A DNA stretch of 38,724 nucleotides, from positions 1 to 38,724 of the IMG/VR virus record IMGVR_UViG_3300027759_000191. One strand, given 5' to 3'. The notes beneath the pieces were generated by a model, which was given only the letters and a program-made list of their open reading frames with translations, made no database searches and was not told the origin of the DNA. Position 1 is the stretch's first letter, and each line of letters opens with the position of its first letter. Origin of the DNA: a virus. Both the position numbers and the translations under genes were made by a program. Below are positions 2,480-11,828 of the stretch, in pieces.

Positions 2480-4003
2480 TTACGCCCCCATCCAAGAGTT
2501 AACGATTCCCTGCTGAGAATAAGACCGAACGGGGCGCTTGTCAACATATTCACGGTGTGCTACAGGGTACGCAAACGTCAACGCAATCGCATCTGCCGCG
2601 TCGGGTGACGCTAGACCTCTTGCCTTCATGTCTTTTTTGCTTTCCAAAAATATTGCACCTTTACTGTCTGGCTTCATCAATGGGCTAATTAGGTCAGTTT
2701 TAAGCGATCTATCTTTAGGGATGCTAGCACTTCGCAACCACTCCTTCATGTCGCCCCACATTTCCGCCCGTTTGTTGCCATACATCATCATGTTTTTAGA
2801 CTTATTGGCAAAATTAACGCCCTTGACCTTGTAGCGCTGCTCTTTTAGCCGATCCACTACGCCAGCGCCTAACCCACCTTCATCAATGTTGACGAGTACT
2901 GGCTTGTATTCTTCCATGCACTCAATGATGCGCCCCACCGTTTCCATTGTATCGTCGCCTTTGTAGCGCTTAATCGCAATGATGTCGCGCCCTTGGCGTA
3001 CGGCGATTACGGTCGAGTCTGCCCCAAACCGTGCTGGGTCAACACCCAAAATGATGGGCGCGGATAGGTCTTTGTACTTGTCCCGTGTCATGGCTTCATC
3101 CACAATGTCTGAGCCAATAAACTGATCGTCGCTAGCGCTAGGAAATTCACCGAACACCTCAACGTGCGCCTGGGCAGAGTCGGCGCCATATTCATCAATA
3201 ATCTGCTGATACACCGCCTTATCCGTACCTTCTACGGTTCTAGCGTCCACAATCTTATTCTTCCAAAAGTCCCGCTTGGAGTGGAAAGATTCGTAAAAGT
3301 ACCCGCTATTGCGCCGTGGGTTAGAGAACGCTAACCAAAAGCGGTTGGGCGTATTTTCCGTAAAAAAGCCCGACGCTACTGACCAGATCGAGTCGTCAAT
3401 ACCTGACGCCTCATCAAATACGAGCATCACGCCTGAGAAGTTATGCACCCCTGCGTAGCTGTCTGGATTCTCCGCTGACCACAATCTACCCTCAACACCC
3501 CAGTAGCGAGTGCCTAGTTTTAGATCACGTTCGACCAGTTCCGTTAGCCATTTGGCTGGCATCACGCGGGTTGCGCTCACTTCAAACCAATGTGTGTTCA
3601 TGGCCATTGACAGCCACTTGGTAATCTCCGCCCAGGTGACTGAGCGCAGCTGCGCTTCTGAGTTAGCCGACACAATGGTGGTCGAGCCAATGCGGGTGGT
3701 CAACATCCAGATCACTAGCCAACTTACCAACGCCGACTTGCCAATACCACGGCCTGATGAGGTAGCCATGCGGAATGTATCAAAGTCCACCTTGCCGTTG
3801 TTCTGTTTGATATGCTCGGCAAGATCCTGCAAGACCTCACGCTGCCACTTGCGTGGGCCAGTAAAGTGTTCTAACGGTGTGCCTGGCTTGCCCCACGGAA
3901 AAGCGTACAGCACAAAGGCTAATGGATTGTCTTTAATAATGGGCGCCCACAATCGCGCCATTAACTCTTGTTCGTCTTGCGCACTATAAATTGTGGTTTG
4001 CAT
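2480..4003 (-). CDS. Terminase large subunit (TerL), ATPase-nuclease
   Basis: 507 residues (P22 gp2 has 499). The product is the packaging motor that cuts concatemeric DNA and pumps it through the portal. The N-terminal ATPase has Walker A GRGIGKS at about 84-90 and Walker B VMLVFDEA at 192-199, with the catalytic Glu after the Asp. The C-terminal RNase H-like nuclease has acidic residues at D322 (LGVDPARFG), D374 (VNIDEGG) and D468/D471 (SPDAADA). The start ATG overlaps the terS stop (TAATG, 4001-4005), so expression is coupled. It resembles large subunits of the headful type, consistent with the circularly permuted contig. Confidence 0.95.
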   Translation of the reverse strand: MQTTIYSAQDEQELMARLWAPIIKDNPLAFVLYAFPWGKPGTPLEHFTGPRKWQREVLQDLAEHIKQNNGKVDFDTFRMATSSGRGIGKSALVSWLVIWMLTTRIGSTTIVSANSEAQLRSVTWAEITKWLSMAMNTHWFEVSATRVMPAKWLTELVERDLKLGTRYWGVEGRLWSAENPDSYAGVHNFSGVMLVFDEASGIDDSIWSVASGFFTENTPNRFWLAFSNPRRNSGYFYESFHSKRDFWKNKIVDARTVEGTDKAVYQQIIDEYGADSAQAHVEVFGEFPSASDDQFIGSDIVDEAMTRDKYKDLSAPIILGVDPARFGADSTVIAVRQGRDIIAIKRYKGDDTMETVGRIIECMEEYKPVLVNIDEGGLGAGVVDRLKEQRYKVKGVNFANKSKNMMMYGNKRAEMWGDMKEWLRSASIPKDRSLKTDLISPLMKPDSKGAIFLESKKDMKARGLASPDAADAIALTFAYPVAHREYVDKRPVRSYSQQGIVNSWMGA

Positions 4004-4473
4004 TACGCTGCTTTTTGCTTTTGCTTGTTAGGTTCCACGTGGAACTCAGGGTTATTACTTAGTTCTTTGGGCGCGGTGACGTCAGTAAACACGCCTTCGA
4101 TGACTCGACGCTGTGCGTCCTCAAGAGCCTGCGTAATGCTAATTCGTTGTTCAATGTCGATTGAAAGTTGTTGCTTGGCGACCCATCCGTGCTGGTGCTG
4201 GAGGATGGCGAGGGCGGCTTTCGCATCACCGCTTGCTGCAGCAGCGTGCAGTTGTTGACTAGCTTCACGTTCACCTTCGGCTCTCCCTTGTAGTTCAGCA
4301 AACTCGGCAGCGGGGTCTAACTGGCACAACTGCCGGTATTCGGTAGGCAACATTCCAGCAGCGATCGCTAACGCGTCGCCTTTAAGACCGAGCTTGGCAG
4401 CTTCTCTAATGGCGTTAAGCCTAACTTCAGTTGCTTGGAGCTTACGGACTTCGTATGGATAGCTGTTAAACAT
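4003..4473 (-). CDS. Terminase small subunit (TerS)
   Basis: 156 residues (P22 gp3 has 162), directly upstream of and overlapping terL. An N-terminal helical, putative DNA-recognition segment (about 1-55) is followed by an Ala/Gln/Glu-rich helical middle (60-105) likely to oligomerise, and a polar C-terminal tail ending in Lys/Gln that would meet TerL. TerS selects the phage DNA (pac site) for packaging. No clear ribosome binding site precedes the ATG at 4473. It is the first gene of the leftward late block and faces the repeat-rich intergenic region. Function rests on position and size rather than a diagnostic motif. Confidence 0.82.
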   Translation of the reverse strand: MFNSYPYEVRKLQATEVRLNAIREAAKLGLKGDALAIAAGMLPTEYRQLCQLDPAAEFAELQGRAEGEREASQQLHAAAASGDAKAALAILQHQHGWVAKQQLSIDIEQRISITQALEDAQRRVIEGVFTDVTAPKELSNNPEFHVEPNKQKQKAA

Positions 4474-4666: not shown

Positions 4667-4798
4667 GTTAGTCATGTAGTCATGTAGTCATGCAGCTGGC
4701 GGGCGCGATACCCGGCAGCCGATCACCAGGGCGCAGCCGGGCGCGTGGCCATGCAGCCGATCAACTGGCGGGCGCGGGATCATGTAGTCATGTAGTCA
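4667..4798. repeat. TGTAGTCA octamer repeats, left group
   Basis: Two tandem runs of the octamer TGTAGTCA (reverse complement TGACTACA): 4667-4690, opening with GTTAGTCA and then two TGTAGTCA units, and 4781-4798. Units follow with an 8-bp period. Between the runs a GC-rich segment contains a repeated CTGGCGGGCGCG (4696-4707 and 4765-4776). Short tandem sites like these usually bind an initiator or regulator, but the protein is unknown. Confidence 0.75.
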
Positions 4799-4811
4799 AC
4801 CCTTTTTATTT

Positions 4812-5105
4812 TGACTACATGACTAACAACATGGGGGCGACAGTTTGCAAACTGGCGGCAGCGCGGGCGCGAAAGCAGCCATTTTGTTAGTCATGTAGTC
4901 ATTTTAGCCACCCGTTTTTAATCGCTACCCGTAATCGTTGCAGTGCAACATAATTGTAGATTTTAAGGTCTCATGAATAACAGTAAAAATATGACTACAT
5001 GACTAACACCCAGCTAAAAAGCCAGGTTTTATCAGGGTTGCGCCGTTAGTCATTCGCCCCCGTTTTATGACTACAAATTGACTACAAAATGACTACATGA
5101 CTAAC
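4812..5105. repeat. TGACTACATGACTAAC repeats, right group
   Basis: The 16-mer TGACTACATGACTAAC is present at 4812-4827, 4992-5007 and 5090-5105, and as its reverse complement at 4886-4901. A half site GTTAGTCAT lies at 5045-5053. At 5068-5105 TGACTACA is repeated at steps of 11, 11 and 8 bases, close to one DNA turn. The copies are the same to the base in independent contexts, which argues for a conserved protein binding site. Confidence 0.8.
4841..4854. promoter_or_regulatory. Perfect 14-bp palindrome, candidate operator
   Basis: CAGTTTGCAAACTG is its own reverse complement. Ten of its bases (TTGCAAACTG) recur at 5153-5162, where they overlap the -35 element of the early promoter. A dimeric regulator binding both places would be a simple explanation. 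A second inverted repeat, GTTGCA-G-TGCAAC, lies at 4937-4949. Confidence 0.5.
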
Positions 5106-5185: not shown

Positions 5186-5244
5186 AAACCGGCACAAAAC
5201 CGGCATTTAATCCACTAAACGAAACGAAAGAGAGTAAAAACATG
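5186..5244 (+). promoter_or_regulatory. Leader and ribosome binding cassette, copy 1
   Basis: The 36 bases 5209-5244 closely match 6265-6300: AATYCACTAA, then a purine-rich GAAAGAGAGTAAA and the ATG. Two copies of AAACCGGCA lie just upstream (5186-5206). The match between leaders of unrelated genes suggests a duplicated translation-initiation cassette. Confidence 0.55.
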
Positions 5245-5496
5245 AAAGCAAACTACAAAAAAGCCGAGGCAGCATTAAAAGCATTGGGCGTGCCTACATA
5301 TCAACGCGCCGATATGCAGCACTTTGCAATAAGCGCCGAGCATGAAAACAGCTGTAAATTTTGCGATTATTACGCCGATGGATATATTCCTAATTGGGAT
5401 TTTGGCGTTAATCCAATCGTTGAAAAAACCCTCGCTAAATACGGCCTTCATTCTGAATGGATCAACCCAGGCGAGTTAGGCGTTTACGAAAACTAA
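5242..5496 (+). CDS. Early phage protein of unknown function (84 aa)
   Basis: ATG at 5242 is chosen because GAAAGAGAG lies just upstream; the frame is open further back to 5140, but that would cover the promoter. The product has an N-terminal basic helix, a CKFC pair at about residues 36-39, an acidic-aromatic middle (YYADGYIPNWDFGV) and a C-terminal HSEWINPGELGVYEN. I recognise this ending from small phage and prophage proteins of unknown role. The two cysteines alone are too few for a confident zinc site. It is the first gene of the early operon. Confidence 0.8.
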   Translation: MKANYKKAEAALKALGVPTYQRADMQHFAISAEHENSCKFCDYYADGYIPNWDFGVNPIVEKTLAKYGLHSEWINPGELGVYEN

Positions 5497-5503
5497 TCAA
5501 CCC

Positions 5504-5549
5504 GCCAGGCCTAGCGCCTGGCATTTAATCACTTGAAAGGCAAACCATG
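5504..5549 (+). promoter_or_regulatory. Intercistronic hairpin plus ribosome binding leader for the clamp gene
   Basis: A stem GCCAGGC/GCCTGGC (5504-5510 and 5516-5522, loop CTAGC) is followed by ATTTAATCACTTGAAAGG and the ATG at 5547. The same hairpin-then-AATCACTTGAAAG arrangement occurs at 7037-7079, and a related one at 6243-6300. There is no long U run, so this looks like an RNA processing or stability element rather than a full terminator. Confidence 0.5.
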
Positions 5550-6224
5550 CAAAACCAATTTTTCATTAAACAATCAACCCTTGACGCCATGCTTTTATTG
5601 GCCGGCAAAAAGGATATTCGCTACTATTTAAACGGCCTCTATATCGAATACGCGCCCGCGTTTACGCGCGTTGTAGGTTGCGACGGCCACAAGCTCGGCA
5701 TATACCAGGCAGCTGCCGAAAACACCGGCAGCGGATTGTTAATAATCCCCCGCGACGTGATCGAAAACTTACCCAAAGACAATAAGGCATTTTTGCTAGG
5801 GTTTACCAAATTAGAGGCGGGCAGCCAATGGCAAATTATCACCGGCACGGCCTCTATTAACTTCGCGCCATGCGAAGGCACTTATCCCGATTTTAGGCGC
5901 GTGACGCAAGGCGTTAAAACAACTGGCGAGGCCGGCGGGTTTAATGTTGAGTATTTAAGCCAGTTTGAAAAGTGCGGTAATTTATTGGCCGGCAGCAAAT
6001 CGAAGGCCGGTAACCGCGCGCGTATCCATCATAACGGCACAAGTGGCGCGATGATCGTTTTTAATGGCGTTGAAAACTTCGCGGGTGTGCTTATGCCATT
6101 GCGCGACAGCGTAGGCAGCCAGGGCGCAACATTCCCGGCCGATTTGATAAGCGCAATTGAACCGGTAGCCGAGCATGAAACGGCAGTCGCCATTAAAAAT
6201 ATCCAAATAGTAAAAGCAGCCTAA
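5547..6224 (+). CDS. Truncated beta sliding clamp (DnaN-like) protein
   Basis: 225 residues, against about 366 for bacterial DnaN. From memory of E. coli beta, residues 23-53 (DIRYYLNG then CDGHKLGIY) match its domain 2 (DVRYYLNG, TDGHRL), IIPRDVIENL at 66-75 matches IVPRKGVIEL, and GTYPDFRRVTQ at 111-121 matches GRFPDYRRVLP. GFNVEYL (131-137) matches GFNVSYV of domain 3, and VLMPLR (181-186) matches the C-terminal VVMPMR. Domain 1 is absent and the first half of domain 3 is deleted; about 39 extra residues follow. DnaN tethers polymerases to DNA as a ring of six domains; how this short form could assemble is open. It could be a working mini-clamp, a decoy of the host clamp or a subunit mixing with it. 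A good ribosome binding site (GAAAGG) precedes the ATG. Confidence 0.82.
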   Translation: MQNQFFIKQSTLDAMLLLAGKKDIRYYLNGLYIEYAPAFTRVVGCDGHKLGIYQAAAENTGSGLLIIPRDVIENLPKDNKAFLLGFTKLEAGSQWQIITGTASINFAPCEGTYPDFRRVTQGVKTTGEAGGFNVEYLSQFEKCGNLLAGSKSKAGNRARIHHNGTSGAMIVFNGVENFAGVLMPLRDSVGSQGATFPADLISAIEPVAEHETAVAIKNIQIVKAA

Positions 6225-6242
6225 TTCTTAGTGGATCGCGCC

Positions 6243-6300
6243 GCCGCCCCGCGTAATGGGCGGCAATTCACTAATCTAAACTGAAAGAGAGTAAACCATG
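6243..6300 (+). promoter_or_regulatory. Intercistronic hairpin plus leader, copy of the 5209-5244 leader
   Basis: A 7-bp stem GCCGCCC/GGGCGGC (6243-6249 and 6258-6264) is followed directly by the 36-base leader (6265-6300) that resembles the one before the 84-residue gene. It lies between the clamp stop and the next ATG (6298). The lack of a U run argues against a strong terminator. Confidence 0.5.
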
Positions 6301-6618
6301 CAACGAATCACCGATAAGCAGCTAGATAGTTTATGCGAATATCTCAATAAATTAACCAACAGCCCGTTAGAATACTCAACCCGCGAGCCGCAGCCTGATG
6401 GATCAACCAAATTCAAGGCCAATATAGGCCATTACCATATTAGTCATGCCTACGGCGGCGTATGCTTACACCGCGTAGTAAACGAAGGCGGCGGGATCAA
6501 TACACCAATTATTAGTTATCACGCCCCAAAACGTGAGCTATATAACGCCATGCAAGCATTTATTCGCGGCCTTGAGGCCGTAAGGTATAGCGACGTAAAC
6601 ATAGAAAAAGCGGCCTAA
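6298..6618 (+). CDS. Early phage protein of unknown function (106 aa)
   Basis: ATG at 6298 after GAAAGAGAG. The product has an N-terminal helix, a segment KFKANIGHYHISHAYGGVCL (about 39-58) and HRVVNEGGG followed by an Ala-rich helical end. Proteins with the same GHYHIS-YGG-LHRVVNEGGG pattern are common in phages of many hosts and are uncharacterised as far as I know. The conserved His residues could bind metal, but no known catalytic set is complete. It lies in the early operon downstream of the clamp. Confidence 0.8.
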   Translation: MQRITDKQLDSLCEYLNKLTNSPLEYSTREPQPDGSTKFKANIGHYHISHAYGGVCLHRVVNEGGGINTPIISYHAPKRELYNAMQAFIRGLEAVRYSDVNIEKAA

Positions 6619-6621
6619 ACC

Positions 6622-6819
6622 ATGAAAAAACTATATATCGCTAAGGGTTATAACTCATGGGCCAATAAATCAGTAGTAAAAGCCTTCAATTCTGAAAAAA
6701 ACGCCGATCAATTTATTCAAGGTTTAACCGATCCGCACATTCAAATATTGGCCTATAAATCCACAACTCAATTAATTAATTACTTTTTAAAGGCAAACCA
6801 TGAAAGCAAAAATACTTGA
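6622..6819 (+). CDS. Small early protein of unknown function (65 aa)
   Basis: ATG at 6622 lies 3 bases after the previous stop, with no obvious ribosome binding site, so coupling is likely. The product starts MKKLYIAKGYNSWANKSVVK and contains GLTDPHIQIL, a pattern I have seen in small phage proteins. Basic, soluble, mixed alpha/beta character; no catalytic motif. Its last 20 bases overlap the next small gene. Confidence 0.7.
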   Translation: MKKLYIAKGYNSWANKSVVKAFNSEKNADQFIQGLTDPHIQILAYKSTTQLINYFLKANHESKNT

Positions 6820-7500: not shown

Positions 7501-9801
7501 TTACTTAACGCGTACCAGGTGCGGCGCGGGATCAACTTCAACGGCCCGCCGCAGATCCGATTTACTTAATTCGATCATATCGGGCGCGCAAAATATATGC
7601 TTTTTACTAGGGTATTCGCGCGACATCAAGCGGCCACAATCAACCCAGCCGGCCTCTTTTAACGCGTGCAGCAGTGCGGCCTGTGGCACTTTCACGCCAG
7701 AGGGCGCAGCGCCCGCCAGGCGATCACATAGCGCATGAAAGGGCGAGCCGATAACACCCTTCGTAAACTCACCGGCACGCGTGCGCAGCATATCAACCAG
7801 GTATGACTCGGCCATGCTCATACCATGCTCAATTAGGTTTGCCTTAAATTCGGTCATAGCAGGCGGGGCGGCAGGATTGAATTTTGAAATGTTTCTATCA
7901 CGCAAAAAGCGACCGACACGCAAAAAGCCACCGGATCTATACCAATTCCACATGGTACGCGCCCGTTCAGGGTTCATTTTAGGGGCGCTTGACCACACGC
8001 AAAACCACCGGCGGTCTTGCGTAGCTAATGAAATTGGCACAGGATCATTACTAAACGCCAATACAAACAGGCGATTGGCCATCATGTACGGGTGCAAACC
8101 CTTGCGATTGATCGGCAGCATCTCAGGGGGCGCTGCGATAATAGGCTTGAGTTGATTAGCCAACTGCCTGCGAGTAGCTGCGTCAGGCTCTTTTAATTCG
8201 TTAATTAAAAGAATCTCAGACTCAAGCTGATAACCCCATTGGCTATTCACGCTGTTATTGTCCATAATGCCGCGGTTTTTTAAGTGTGGCCCACAGATTG
8301 CCCAAATGAACGGCGCCCAAAACGTATCTTTCCCGCAGCCCTCGTCCCCGCCATGCAGGATCGCATGATTCACTTTGATCTCAGGGTGCTGAACTTTGAA
8401 CGCCATGACGTCAAGCACATGGTTCAGTTCGTCAGGCTCAGGGATCAACAGTTTGGCGTGATTGAGCCACATAGAGATGTCGCCCACTTCCACGCCTGAT
8501 ACATCAGGGCGGGCGTCACGCCAGCGGTTGCCGTACAAATCGCCGTCACGCTCGACTACCACCGACTCACCGGCAGCATAGGTGATGCCGACAAGCGCCT
8601 GCGCGCCCATGGCCTGCCGGTTCTCGTCAAAGCAGACGGACGCCTCAATGCGACGCCCTGTATGCAAGGACTTGCATGAGATATGGCGATAAAGGGCGTT
8701 AAAGGTAGTTCTGCCGATCTCACGGCGGTCTTGCAGGTCAAAGAAACTCTCATCGTCTTGTACATACGCAAAACGCTTGTACCACTGTTCACGCTCAACA
8801 CGACCGAGTTGTTTACGCTCAACCTCATCAATAATTCGCTTGGCTTCATCAGGGAAGGCCTCGGTGGGCTTGATCTTATCAAGTACCATGTTCATGCGCT
8901 CGGCTAATAATTCATCACGCAAACCATGATCGACACTTGGGCCGCCGTTGGTAGCAACCCAATCTAAAAATTCACGGCTGCCTAAGTCTTGGCAATGGCC
9001 GTGGTAGCAACAAAATGACCGATCTAAGGGTTTATACCTAGCTTCAATCTCACCCGTTGTATGTTCAGCGCTGTTTGGGCAAACGACTGCTACCCAGCCC
9101 TCACGATTGACGGGCGACAATACTAAGCCCTGTTCATTGAGCCACGTCAGCACCTTATCTTTACCTGTGTCAACGAGCTTGACCGACTCCGCCGTAGCCG
9201 TGTCAGCTGCTTCAGGCACCACATTAAGCGCTGCGCAGATGTCCTCAAGGTTGTACTCACGTTCAGGATGGAACTCGACCAAGCGAGATGCGAAGTTACC
9301 GCGCCCAGGCTTGAGATTAATTGAGCCTGGCAGACGGAAATTGCGAACGGCGTTGGTGGCGCCTGGATCGGTGTAACCTGCTTTGGCAATCGCCTTGATT
9401 GCAGCGGTAAAGTCGCCTTTGGTGGGCTGTTCTTTAAACGCATAGCCCCATTGGAACGACCCTTCAGACGTTTCCATGATCCAAGTGGGCGCCAAAGGCG
9501 GCTCTTTAGACTTGGTGCCAATATCGTCAAGCATCATGACTAGCACGTACTCGCAATTAGCCGAGGATGCGCTAGGCTTGCCCTCAGTAAAGCGATCGAC
9601 AATAAATGAGCCAGTGTTGCCGTACCATGCTTCGTTATCACGCATTTTGTGACTAGGCAGGAAAGAAGGCCAAGTGCATTTAATCACGCCATCGGCATGA
9701 AATTGCAACTCGCCATCCTTTAACTGTGGTTTTTGGCGAACAATTAACGCAGTTTCACCTTCAGGGGCTAAACCTATGATATATTCTAAAAAGTTATTCA
9801 A
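7501..9801 (-). CDS. Primase-helicase (AEP-type primase plus DUF5906-like superfamily 3 helicase)
   Basis: Start taken as TTG at 9801, seven bases after AAGGAG; an upstream GTG at 9846 would lie in the intergenic hairpin and lacks a site. This gives 766 residues. The N-terminal half looks like a RepB/archaeo-eukaryotic primase: acidic pair in VMMLDDIGTK (about 89-97) and NFRLPGSINLKPGR (154-167). A Cys/His cluster follows (CPNSAEH 241-247 and CCYHGHC 264-270), probably zinc-binding. The C-terminal ATPase has Walker A GGDEGCGKDT (484-493), Walker B EILLINELK (529-537) and a sensor-like FSNDPVPI. The enzyme would open DNA and lay primers for the polymerase encoded just upstream. Confidence 0.9.
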   Translation of the reverse strand: MNNFLEYIIGLAPEGETALIVRQKPQLKDGELQFHADGVIKCTWPSFLPSHKMRDNEAWYGNTGSFIVDRFTEGKPSASSANCEYVLVMMLDDIGTKSKEPPLAPTWIMETSEGSFQWGYAFKEQPTKGDFTAAIKAIAKAGYTDPGATNAVRNFRLPGSINLKPGRGNFASRLVEFHPEREYNLEDICAALNVVPEAADTATAESVKLVDTGKDKVLTWLNEQGLVLSPVNREGWVAVVCPNSAEHTTGEIEARYKPLDRSFCCYHGHCQDLGSREFLDWVATNGGPSVDHGLRDELLAERMNMVLDKIKPTEAFPDEAKRIIDEVERKQLGRVEREQWYKRFAYVQDDESFFDLQDRREIGRTTFNALYRHISCKSLHTGRRIEASVCFDENRQAMGAQALVGITYAAGESVVVERDGDLYGNRWRDARPDVSGVEVGDISMWLNHAKLLIPEPDELNHVLDVMAFKVQHPEIKVNHAILHGGDEGCGKDTFWAPFIWAICGPHLKNRGIMDNNSVNSQWGYQLESEILLINELKEPDAATRRQLANQLKPIIAAPPEMLPINRKGLHPYMMANRLFVLAFSNDPVPISLATQDRRWFCVWSSAPKMNPERARTMWNWYRSGGFLRVGRFLRDRNISKFNPAAPPAMTEFKANLIEHGMSMAESYLVDMLRTRAGEFTKGVIGSPFHALCDRLAGAAPSGVKVPQAALLHALKEAGWVDCGRLMSREYPSKKHIFCAPDMIELSKSDLRRAVEVDPAPHLVRVK

Positions 9802-9830
9802 GTGATTCTCCTTTTTGCAGAGGGGGTTTG

Positions 9831-9868
9831 CCCCTACAAGTTTCACGTGCTTGTAGGGGTATTTTTTT
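9831..9868. promoter_or_regulatory. 10-bp perfect hairpin between polymerase and primase genes; terminator only for rightward RNA
   Basis: CCCCTACAAG (9831-9840) pairs with CTTGTAGGGG (9850-9859) around a 9-base loop; on the plus strand it is followed by TA and seven T. In the direction of the genes (leftward) no U run follows, and instead GGGGCAAACCCC offers a competing small stem near the primase ribosome binding site. It would stop antisense transcription entering the polymerase gene and may tune primase translation. Confidence 0.7.
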
Positions 9869-11828
9869 ACTTACCATAACGTGACATCACACCAACTTCT
9901 ACACTTAAAGGCAAACCTGTCGCCCAAGCGGGTGGTGTACACATCACGCGCTCCATTTCAATCTTTACTGCTTCGGGTTCATGCGTTTCGACCACAATCT
10001 CGTCATGCACATGAAGAACTACGTCGTCTAAATTTCGTAATGAGTAACGCAAAAGATCGTTGGCTACTGCTTGAGTTATGTTCTCGCAAGCTAATCCTTT
10101 CCATAAACGCGCCCTTGGCCACTCTTTAGCGTCTGCTGCGGGTTTCCATGACGCCTTAGCGTAAGTCACTCCATCAGCATCAATTTGGGCGAACGGATAG
10201 CATAGCACACGCCCACTCGGAAGTGCATACCATAGGTGTAAACCATCATACATATAGGTCGTTCTGCCTGCGGTAAATTCATGCTTAGGGTTACGCATAG
10301 CACGGGTGTAAGCGTCCTCAAGATCACTCCAGTACAACACCGCCCACGGGTTAGCCAGGCGCCATCCGTTAACCATGCGCTTGGCTTCAGGTTCGGTCAT
10401 CATCACGCCGTAAATGCGACCCATCGCAGCGAACGCGCCCACACCGCCGGCGAATCCGCAAGCCAACTCTTGCACCTTGCCGATCTGACGCTGATCTTTA
10501 TCGACCTTATGCAATGGCACATTAAAAGTTTTAGCTGCGTTGACCTTGTAGACGTCCTCGCCCGTGCGAAACAGGTCTAGCTTATCAATGCTACTGCGAT
10601 GCGCTGATATCCAAGGTGTTACGCGTGCTTCAATCGCTGACCAATCGGCTACGACGAGGGTCTTTCCCAAAGCGGGTACCAAAGCTGGCCGTAACATTCC
10701 TTTAAGGACATCGGTAACTCGTCGTCCAAAGGCAGGGACAATTGCGTGGCGTCTAACCATTGCCTGTCTAACGGCTTCAGGATCGCTAGCGCATTTCCTA
10801 GGGAAGTTATGTACTTGGAGTCCATAGCTTGAAGCTCGTCCAGTGGCACTGCCGCCAGCAAAGACAAAAGCTCCTCTAACTCGCCCGTCATCCTCGTCTG
10901 CCAAGTCTGCTGCTCGTTTGAACTTAGCGACTGAGGACGCCCAGAGGTCATCTGCGCATTGGATAACGTCAGCAACGTGGGGCGGGATTTCGTCATGGTT
11001 TTCCTCCGCTAAGATTAATAAATTTGCTCGTACGGTCTTGTCAATACTGTACTTCTTATCACCATCTTTATACGATTCCATCAACTTCTTGGCTTCGGGG
11101 CCAACGCGCTCTAGCACCCAATCCCTCATGCGAGGAGAGCGCACCGATGTAATCTCTCCGTTGGTCACTTCATCCACAATGGCTTCGATCTCACCTAGCT
11201 CATGGCTGGCGTATCGAATTGCGGACTCGGCTAATGGCTTATCCAGCAACACGCCGCGATCGTTAATGCGCTCATTGACATGGTAATCCAAGAGTTCTTC
11301 ATCTGACAAGTCACGCATGGCTTTGCTAATTGAGCGCATGGCTTTGACGTCTTGTTCGCAGTAGGCGACCATCTCGGCCATGAGCGTAGCATCGTTATTA
11401 AACGATCCATCAGAGCGTGGGATTGATAAGGCACGGATCAGTTGCTTGCCTCGGTGATCCTTCTTCATAGTGGCACCAGCAAAGCGGCCGACATCTTCCA
11501 ATGAGCCTGGAGCGCAGTTGGCACGGGCTTGCGTTGCCGTACAATAGAACTGTTCTAGCTTTGGTTCGGGGGTTCCCTTGTCTGCGCACAGGACATACCA
11601 CCAGATTAGACGTTCAAAAGCAGCGTTATGCGCTCGAATTTGACCTGTGTAATTTGCAACACGGGCAGGAAATGGTTGATCCGCAAGCCATGTAACGACA
11701 TCTTCATCGTCAAAGGCATAGCTCATGCACAGCACTTGCGTACTCGGATCTTGTGCATAGTTGTAAACGCCACGACTCGGTAGATCGCAACGGCTACGGG
11801 TTTCAAAGTCAAGCCAAAGAATAGTCAT
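9867..11828 (-). CDS. Family A DNA polymerase with 3'-5' exonuclease
   Basis: 653 residues. The proofreading domain has Exo I LDFET (D7, E9), an Exo II-like AHNAAFER (67-73) and Exo III YCEQD (Y156, D160). The polymerase domain has TGRASS (329-334), motif A VVADWSAIEARV (catalytic D395), motif B around RQIGKVQELACGFAGG (R447, K451) and motif C HVHDE (H608, D609, E610). The catalytic residues are all present, so it should be active as the replicative polymerase. It is second to last in the leftward replication arm, before the primase-helicase. Motif B departs from the usual bacterial Pol I pattern, as in other phage members of this group. Confidence 0.95.
   Translation of the reverse strand: MTILWLDFETRSRCDLPSRGVYNYAQDPSTQVLCMSYAFDDEDVVTWLADQPFPARVANYTGQIRAHNAAFERLIWWYVLCADKGTPEPKLEQFYCTATQARANCAPGSLEDVGRFAGATMKKDHRGKQLIRALSIPRSDGSFNNDATLMAEMVAYCEQDVKAMRSISKAMRDLSDEELLDYHVNERINDRGVLLDKPLAESAIRYASHELGEIEAIVDEVTNGEITSVRSPRMRDWVLERVGPEAKKLMESYKDGDKKYSIDKTVRANLLILAEENHDEIPPHVADVIQCADDLWASSVAKFKRAADLADEDDGRVRGAFVFAGGSATGRASSYGLQVHNFPRKCASDPEAVRQAMVRRHAIVPAFGRRVTDVLKGMLRPALVPALGKTLVVADWSAIEARVTPWISAHRSSIDKLDLFRTGEDVYKVNAAKTFNVPLHKVDKDQRQIGKVQELACGFAGGVGAFAAMGRIYGVMMTEPEAKRMVNGWRLANPWAVLYWSDLEDAYTRAMRNPKHEFTAGRTTYMYDGLHLWYALPSGRVLCYPFAQIDADGVTYAKASWKPAADAKEWPRARLWKGLACENITQAVANDLLRYSLRNLDDVVLHVHDEIVVETHEPEAVKIEMERVMCTPPAWATGLPLSVEVGVMSRYGK

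Follow-up and report, generated by a model that had tools for sequence, protein, structure and literature searches.

A widespread short phage protein related to the bacterial sliding clamp retains the client-binding pocket and lacks the known ring-closing residues

A short clamp gene and its surroundings

The window analyzed here is the whole of a 38,724-base virus record (IMGVR_UViG_3300027759_000191), 25 kb of which gave no match when compared with phage records by megablast. It contains a short plus-strand group (5242-6819) in which the gene for a short clamp-like protein is located, while the terminase, primase and family A DNA polymerase genes are encoded on the minus strand (Table 1). 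A first-pass annotation had placed the clamp gene in the first early operon, far from the polymerase gene. The distance is partly right, as the polymerase starts 3.6 kb off, past the primase gene; in BcepC6B and Acinetobacter 4316, however, the gene adjoins the polymerase. The assignment to an early operon is unproven, since promoter-like sites in the window were no commoner than expected by chance.

Between terS and the clamp-gene group lies an iteron-like array (window 4667-5105), in which TGACTACATGACTAAC occurs five times exactly and twice as a near copy, distributed over both strands, compared to 0.17 expected. The array is also present in loci L002, L021 and L025, and represents a candidate replication origin or operator.

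Table 1. Position of the short clamp gene, its parts and its neighbors in the window
Feature	Position	Strand	Remarks
Terminase genes	2480-4473	-	
Likely ribosome-binding site, GAAAGG (AAAGG core)	5535..5540	+	Six bases 5' of the ATG; read from the sequence
Short clamp-like protein gene	5547..6224	+	Open frame, 225 aa, ATG start; PHROG 3007 at 4.7e-28; DnaN central domain
Residues 1-62, DnaN D2a (first half of domain 2)	5547..5732	+	hhalign E=3.1e-27; next best D1a, 1e-4
DIRYYLNG	5613..5636	+	Pocket residues R25 (R152) and L28 (L155)
CDGHKL	5679..5696	+	Pocket equivalents of T172, G174, H175, R176 and L177
Residues 63-121, DnaN D2b (second half of domain 2)	5733..5909	+	hhalign E=4.9e-18
YPDFRRV	5883..5903	+	Pocket residues P114 (P242), R118 (R246) and V119 (V247)
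Residues 122-188, DnaN D3b (second half of domain 3)	5910..6110	+	hhalign E=4.8e-11, versus 0.046 for D3a
GFNVEYL	5937..5957	+	Pocket residues N133 (N320) and Y136 (Y323)
GVLMPLR	6084..6104	+	Pocket residues V181, M183, P184, L185 and R186 (V360, M362, P363, M364, R365)
Residues 189-225, variable C-terminal tail	6111..6221	+	Ends in AA
Small gene, next after the clamp gene	6298..6618	+	106 aa; also downstream of the clamp gene in L020, L022, L048, L052 and L063
Primase and family A DNA polymerase	7501-11828	-	
Family A DNA polymerase of the same phage	9867..11828	-	Possible, non-obligatory partner of the short clamp

Domain build and predicted fold

Taken singly, the 225-aa product matched the Pfam DnaN central domain with an E-value of 1.8e-4, which is below the gathering score, and NCBIfam dnaN at 1e-6, while its match to PHROG 3007 covered residues 5-187. 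When a profile of the family was compared with the PDB, E. coli beta was retrieved at 9e-31.

The build of the protein was determined by cutting 50 bacterial DnaN proteins into six half-domains, which were compared as profiles (hhalign) with an alignment of 59 phage proteins split into thirds. The host set served as a control and derived from a scan of genome contigs, in which all 50 loci extracted were bacterial DnaN of at least 340 aa each. The three thirds corresponded to D2a, D2b and D3b (Table 1), which bears out the earlier proposal of a domain 2 and the end of a domain 3 without domain 1. DnaN motifs were also located where they had been claimed, i.e. DIRYYLNG at residues 23-30, CDGHKL at 45-50, GTYPDFRRV at 111-119, GFNVEYL at 131-137 and VLMPLR at 181-186. 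The spacing between RRV and the N320 equivalent was 12-17 residues in all 59 phage members, in contrast with 71-73 in the 50 bacterial clamps, and therefore D3a, approximately 59 residues, is absent; the loss within domain 3 had been recognized previously, though its size had been put at about 50 residues. Further, the inner helix region of D2a is four residues shorter than the bacterial one in 58 of the 59 members. The domain 1 profile gave no match in the window, nor in ten other phage genomes carrying the short clamp gene. A split gene, with D1 or D3a encoded elsewhere, was rejected because of this lack of a D1 match and because the sole domain 3 matches were to the second half, inside the short gene. 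Thus, instead of the three complete domains and approximately 366 residues of full DnaN, only D2 and D3b were found. Judged from these profile comparisons, the 225-aa protein is a DnaN derivative in which D2 is joined straight to D3b, giving three half-domain repeats.

As the first-pass annotation had proposed, a search with DnaN profiles and a structure prediction of the monomer were carried out; the former found domain 2 and the latter yielded a clamp fold. The AlphaFold2 monomer model, built with 47 sequences, had a pLDDT of 90 and a pTM of 0.80, and its residues 1-187 superimposed (VIA-align) onto residues 124-366 of E. coli beta with a Z-score of 16.6 and 2.3 A over 175 residues. From this superposition, D2 and D3b keep their native mutual relation in the model. 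The distant member L084, also modeled as a monomer, reached a pLDDT of 91.5 and a Z-score of 17.6 on the same E. coli beta chain.

The C-terminal tail, described earlier as new and 39 residues long, is indeed present (38-39 residues) but variable across the family, and 9 of the 59 members have fewer than five residues from the L366-equivalent position onward. A P-x-W/F motif is found in many tails. Among 46 non-redundant members, 21 had a C-terminus ending in AA, compared to 21 of 463 ORFs other than the clamp gene in these loci, a difference whose significance is inflated by kinship; these endings are reminiscent, by analogy, of ssrA/ClpXP-type endings.

Conserved pocket, lost interface residues and the phage family

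The pocket of beta that receives the motifs of client proteins comprises R152, L155, T172, G174, H175, R176, L177, P242, R246, V247, N320, Y323, V344, V360, M362, P363, M364 and R365, according to a 2024 review (PMC11139829). The window protein has the bacterial consensus residue at 14 of these 18 positions and a conservative change at two (K49 and L185). Conservation within the family was 0.81 for the pocket versus 0.41 for other positions conserved at 80% or more in hosts (p=4e-5, closest relatives removed), with pocket residues nearly invariant among members that share only about 30% identity.

This was in contrast with the residues known to close the ring. The seven published dimer-interface residues of beta (I78, R103, F106, I272, L273, E298 and E304; PMC11139829) all fall, by number, in the deleted D1 or D3a, so that neither closure into a trimer by itself nor mixing with the host ring is likely. 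Consequently, neither the PCNA-like trimer ring nor the mixing with the host clamp put forward in the first-pass annotation finds support here, the more so for the trimer as the protein has three half-domains versus four per PCNA-type subunit. Taken together, the account of build, pocket and lost interface parts is well supported by the alignments and the predicted models.

Other positions have changed as well. K198, invariant in the 50 bacterial clamps, is replaced by D or E in 42 of the 59 phage members, and Q149 is mostly replaced in the family. The D3b positions 315, 317, 321, 325, 328 and 359 are hydrophobic in hosts and mostly polar or small in the phage proteins, as expected for a surface that formerly faced D3a and would now be exposed. 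In addition, the family has retained or acquired lysines at host positions 136, 148 and 329, and its core has an average net charge of +1.6, compared to -6.0 in the host counterpart, so that direct contact with DNA is possible.

By tblastn, 213 phage records were retrieved, the weaker matches including full-length phage clamps. In IMG/VR, a profile-based scan yielded 435 confirmed relatives; the 80 best were analyzed at the locus level. In these best 80 of 435, the gene call was complete in 78 cases, each encoding 182-232 residues when counted from the start codon closest to the match; in one of the 78 (L079), the frame extends upstream to 380 residues from the first start codon. A terS-like gene was located upstream on the opposite strand in 39 of the same 80 loci, a primase downstream on the opposite strand in 27, and a polymerase behind the primase in at least 16. 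The clamp gene runs against the structural-gene strand in Bcep781, EP23, SE1 and XY2; it directly follows the family A polymerase gene in BcepC6B, Acinetobacter 4316, L039 and L046. Phages that were isolated on laboratory E. coli K-12, Skarpretter among them, also carry members. All 59 aligned members share the same build, and dN/dS ranged from 0.06 to 0.22 in 11 informative pairs, which indicates purifying selection.

Several further features were observed in individual loci. A ParB-like gene lies near the short clamp gene in L010, L013, L016, L062 and L084, the first three of which correspond to D14E, AB4P2 and VLCpiS13c, where no polymerase match was obtained. The gene copy of a close relative (L003 5255-5786) is frame-broken near its end, be it real or an assembly error. 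BcepC6B gp31 (L005 9995-10591) is annotated from an internal start at 10076; the family match starts about 25 codons further upstream, at 10001 or earlier.

PHROG 3007 and 12598, as well as many records, carry the label 'RusA-like Holliday junction resolvase' (e.g., L008 7992-8573). However, each of the 47 aligned members matched the PHROG 3007 family, NCBIfam dnaN and the central domain of DnaN; RusA (PF05866) was absent from the Pfam matches of all 47. In Bcep781, the Pfam match to RusA belongs to a separate, genuine rusA (gp22), and gp15 is noted as 'DNA Pol III b subunit fragment'. An identity as RusA resolvase was rejected on these grounds, and the label most likely arose from an error in annotation.

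Several records already name members 'beta clamp domain protein' or 'DNA polymerase III sliding clamp', and the Skarpretter 'beta_clamp superfamily' protein and the Acinetobacter 4316 'DNA polymerase III subunit beta' belong to the same family as the window protein. Proteins of PHROG 3007/12598, such as Bcep781 gp15 and BcepC6B gp31, resemble it in their full-length match, build and similar size, and those from isolate phages differ in having 24-36% identity to it and a variable tail. The first-pass annotation knew of no described clamp of this exact build; the build is shared by a widespread family that is already present in databases, often misnamed. The literature searched contained no account of the exact build, of a kept pocket with a lost interface, or of a function; a 2011 survey of viral replicases could mention the build.

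Possible partners and functions

In record-wide searches of eleven genomes with the short clamp gene, a family A polymerase was found in six (the window, EP23, Bcep781, SE1, BcepC6B and Acinetobacter 4316), while no match to a family A, B or C polymerase was obtained in Skarpretter, D14E, AB4P2, USP_25 and VLCpiS13c. USP_25 showed one weak phrog_17 match, over 132 of 1445 profile positions, in a gene annotated as an exonuclease. The clamp-loader family PF13177 had no match in any of the eleven genomes. Consensus clamp-binding motifs gave scattered matches among the window's own proteins; such motifs vary. The five carriers without a polymerase match weaken the idea of an obligatory partner of the phage polymerase and indicate that the protein is not simply such a partner. 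Together with the lack of a clamp-loader match in all eleven genomes, they make host proteins likely partners in at least those five.

We tentatively favor, at somewhat less than even confidence, a ring-less protein that would bind clients of the host clamp, or the clamp loader, through its pocket and probably compete with the host clamp. Because D2 and D3b are predicted to keep their native mutual orientation, the groove for clamp-binding motifs would be left intact, and the parts that close two beta subunits around DNA would be lost. Such a soluble pocket without a ring may then bind the clamp loader and other clients, none of which would be placed on DNA. Monomeric beta (I272A/L273A) cannot support processive synthesis by Pol III, yet delta is reported to have an approximately 50-fold higher affinity for monomeric beta with a broken interface than for the dimer (PMC11139829), from which it follows that a pocket-bearing monomer could compete strongly. 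Thus, of the three options considered in the first-pass annotation, blocking of the host clamp appears to be the best, more likely by competition for its partners than by joining the ring. A wider proposal, in which this soluble decoy would sequester the clamp loader and polymerases of the host and stand for a widespread, unrecognized class of replication take-over proteins under the 'RusA-like' label, is possible, and we hold it with less confidence.

As far as the alignments can tell, the decoy reading is favored by a pocket that is kept while other positions drift, and by the charge reversal at K198 combined with the lost dimer-interface residues; the absent clamp-loader match and the five genomes without a polymerase match also point to host partners. 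The superposition of both monomer models on D2-D3 of E. coli beta and the purifying selection speak for it as well. Conversely, contacts of delta with beta extend to a loop outside the pocket, which may count against a decoy. The polymerase-adjacent gene in BcepC6B, Acinetobacter 4316 and two IMG/VR loci suggests a polymerase role there, the lysines and the basic core make direct DNA binding possible, and the structure predictions, all of them of monomers, leave room for a possible unexpected oligomer.

The main rival is a non-ring processivity or recruitment factor that, like UL42/UL44, binds DNA directly as a monomer or small oligomer and tethers a polymerase, of phage or host, or another enzyme to phage DNA via the pocket. 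We regard it as less likely; it is favored by the four loci where the gene directly follows a family A polymerase (BcepC6B, Acinetobacter 4316, L039 and L046) and by the conserved lysines and basic shift of the core. In line with it, UL42 and UL44 are non-ring clamps of viruses without clamp loaders (PMC9690074), and no loader match was obtained here. This is opposed by the five carrier genomes without a polymerase match, by a core that is weakly basic compared with the highly positive UL42 type, by the reversed charge of the inner lysine K198, invariant in hosts, and by the inability of monomeric beta to tether Pol III processively (PMC11139829). Occupation of the clamp-binding motifs of host repair or defence proteins (e.g., mismatch repair, RecBCD or Hda), instead of interference with replication itself, seems improbable. 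One pocket serves many such proteins (PMC11139829), an interaction of E. coli RecBCD with the clamp has been reported (PMC13254535), and the gene has an accessory position, against the structural-gene strand, in several phages; however, the analysis revealed no specific link to a defence or repair gene.

Equally improbable, in our estimation, is a closed ring of its own, formed via a new interface and acting as an ordinary sliding clamp. A tetramer of subunits with three half-domains each would total twelve half-domains, as in beta, and the models, being of monomers, leave room for it. Nevertheless, both known interface parts are absent, the D3b positions are mostly polar or small where a new partner surface is expected to be hydrophobic, K198 is reversed and a clamp-loader match is lacking. 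The idea of a poison subunit inserting into, or capping, the host beta ring is weaker still: the shared family origin allows contact with host beta in principle, but the phage protein lacks the surfaces through which beta subunits are joined. Finally, we give hardly any credence to a decaying, functionless remnant of a phage clamp. A truncated homologue, the deposition of Bcep781 gp15 as a 'fragment' and the frame-broken relative L003 might suggest it; this is strongly disfavored by the dN/dS values, and the near-invariant pocket at about 30% identity, the same build in 59 members and the conserved genome position are at variance with decay as well.

Sliding clamps are known mainly as closed rings. 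The phage protein shares with bacterial DnaN domain 2, the second half of domain 3, the fold and the client-binding pocket, but is without domain 1, D3a and the known ring-closing residues, and the charge of the inner-channel K198 is reversed. The subunit of T4 gp45 is of similar size; however, gp45 and PCNA have two complete domains (four half-domains) and form a closed ring, unlike the three half-domains of DnaN type described here. The herpesvirus proteins UL42/UL44 likewise combine a clamp fold with neither a closed ring nor a clamp loader of their own, yet they are strongly basic and serve a dedicated viral polymerase, whereas the short clamp is weakly basic and several carriers gave no polymerase match. 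Gp168 of Staphylococcus phage Twort is aimed at the host clamp system, as the short clamp may be. Gp168 sits in the host clamp's DNA channel (PMC11139829), in contrast to the window protein, which is itself a clamp derivative.

The present analysis corrects a misnomer found in many records (PHROG 3007). A large phage family in which the partner-binding socket remains and the ring-closing parts are gone would show that reduction of a bacterial clamp to a protein-binding module is feasible. As the clamp pocket is an antibiotic target, such a family would also provide a competitor for it that is natural and tested by evolution.
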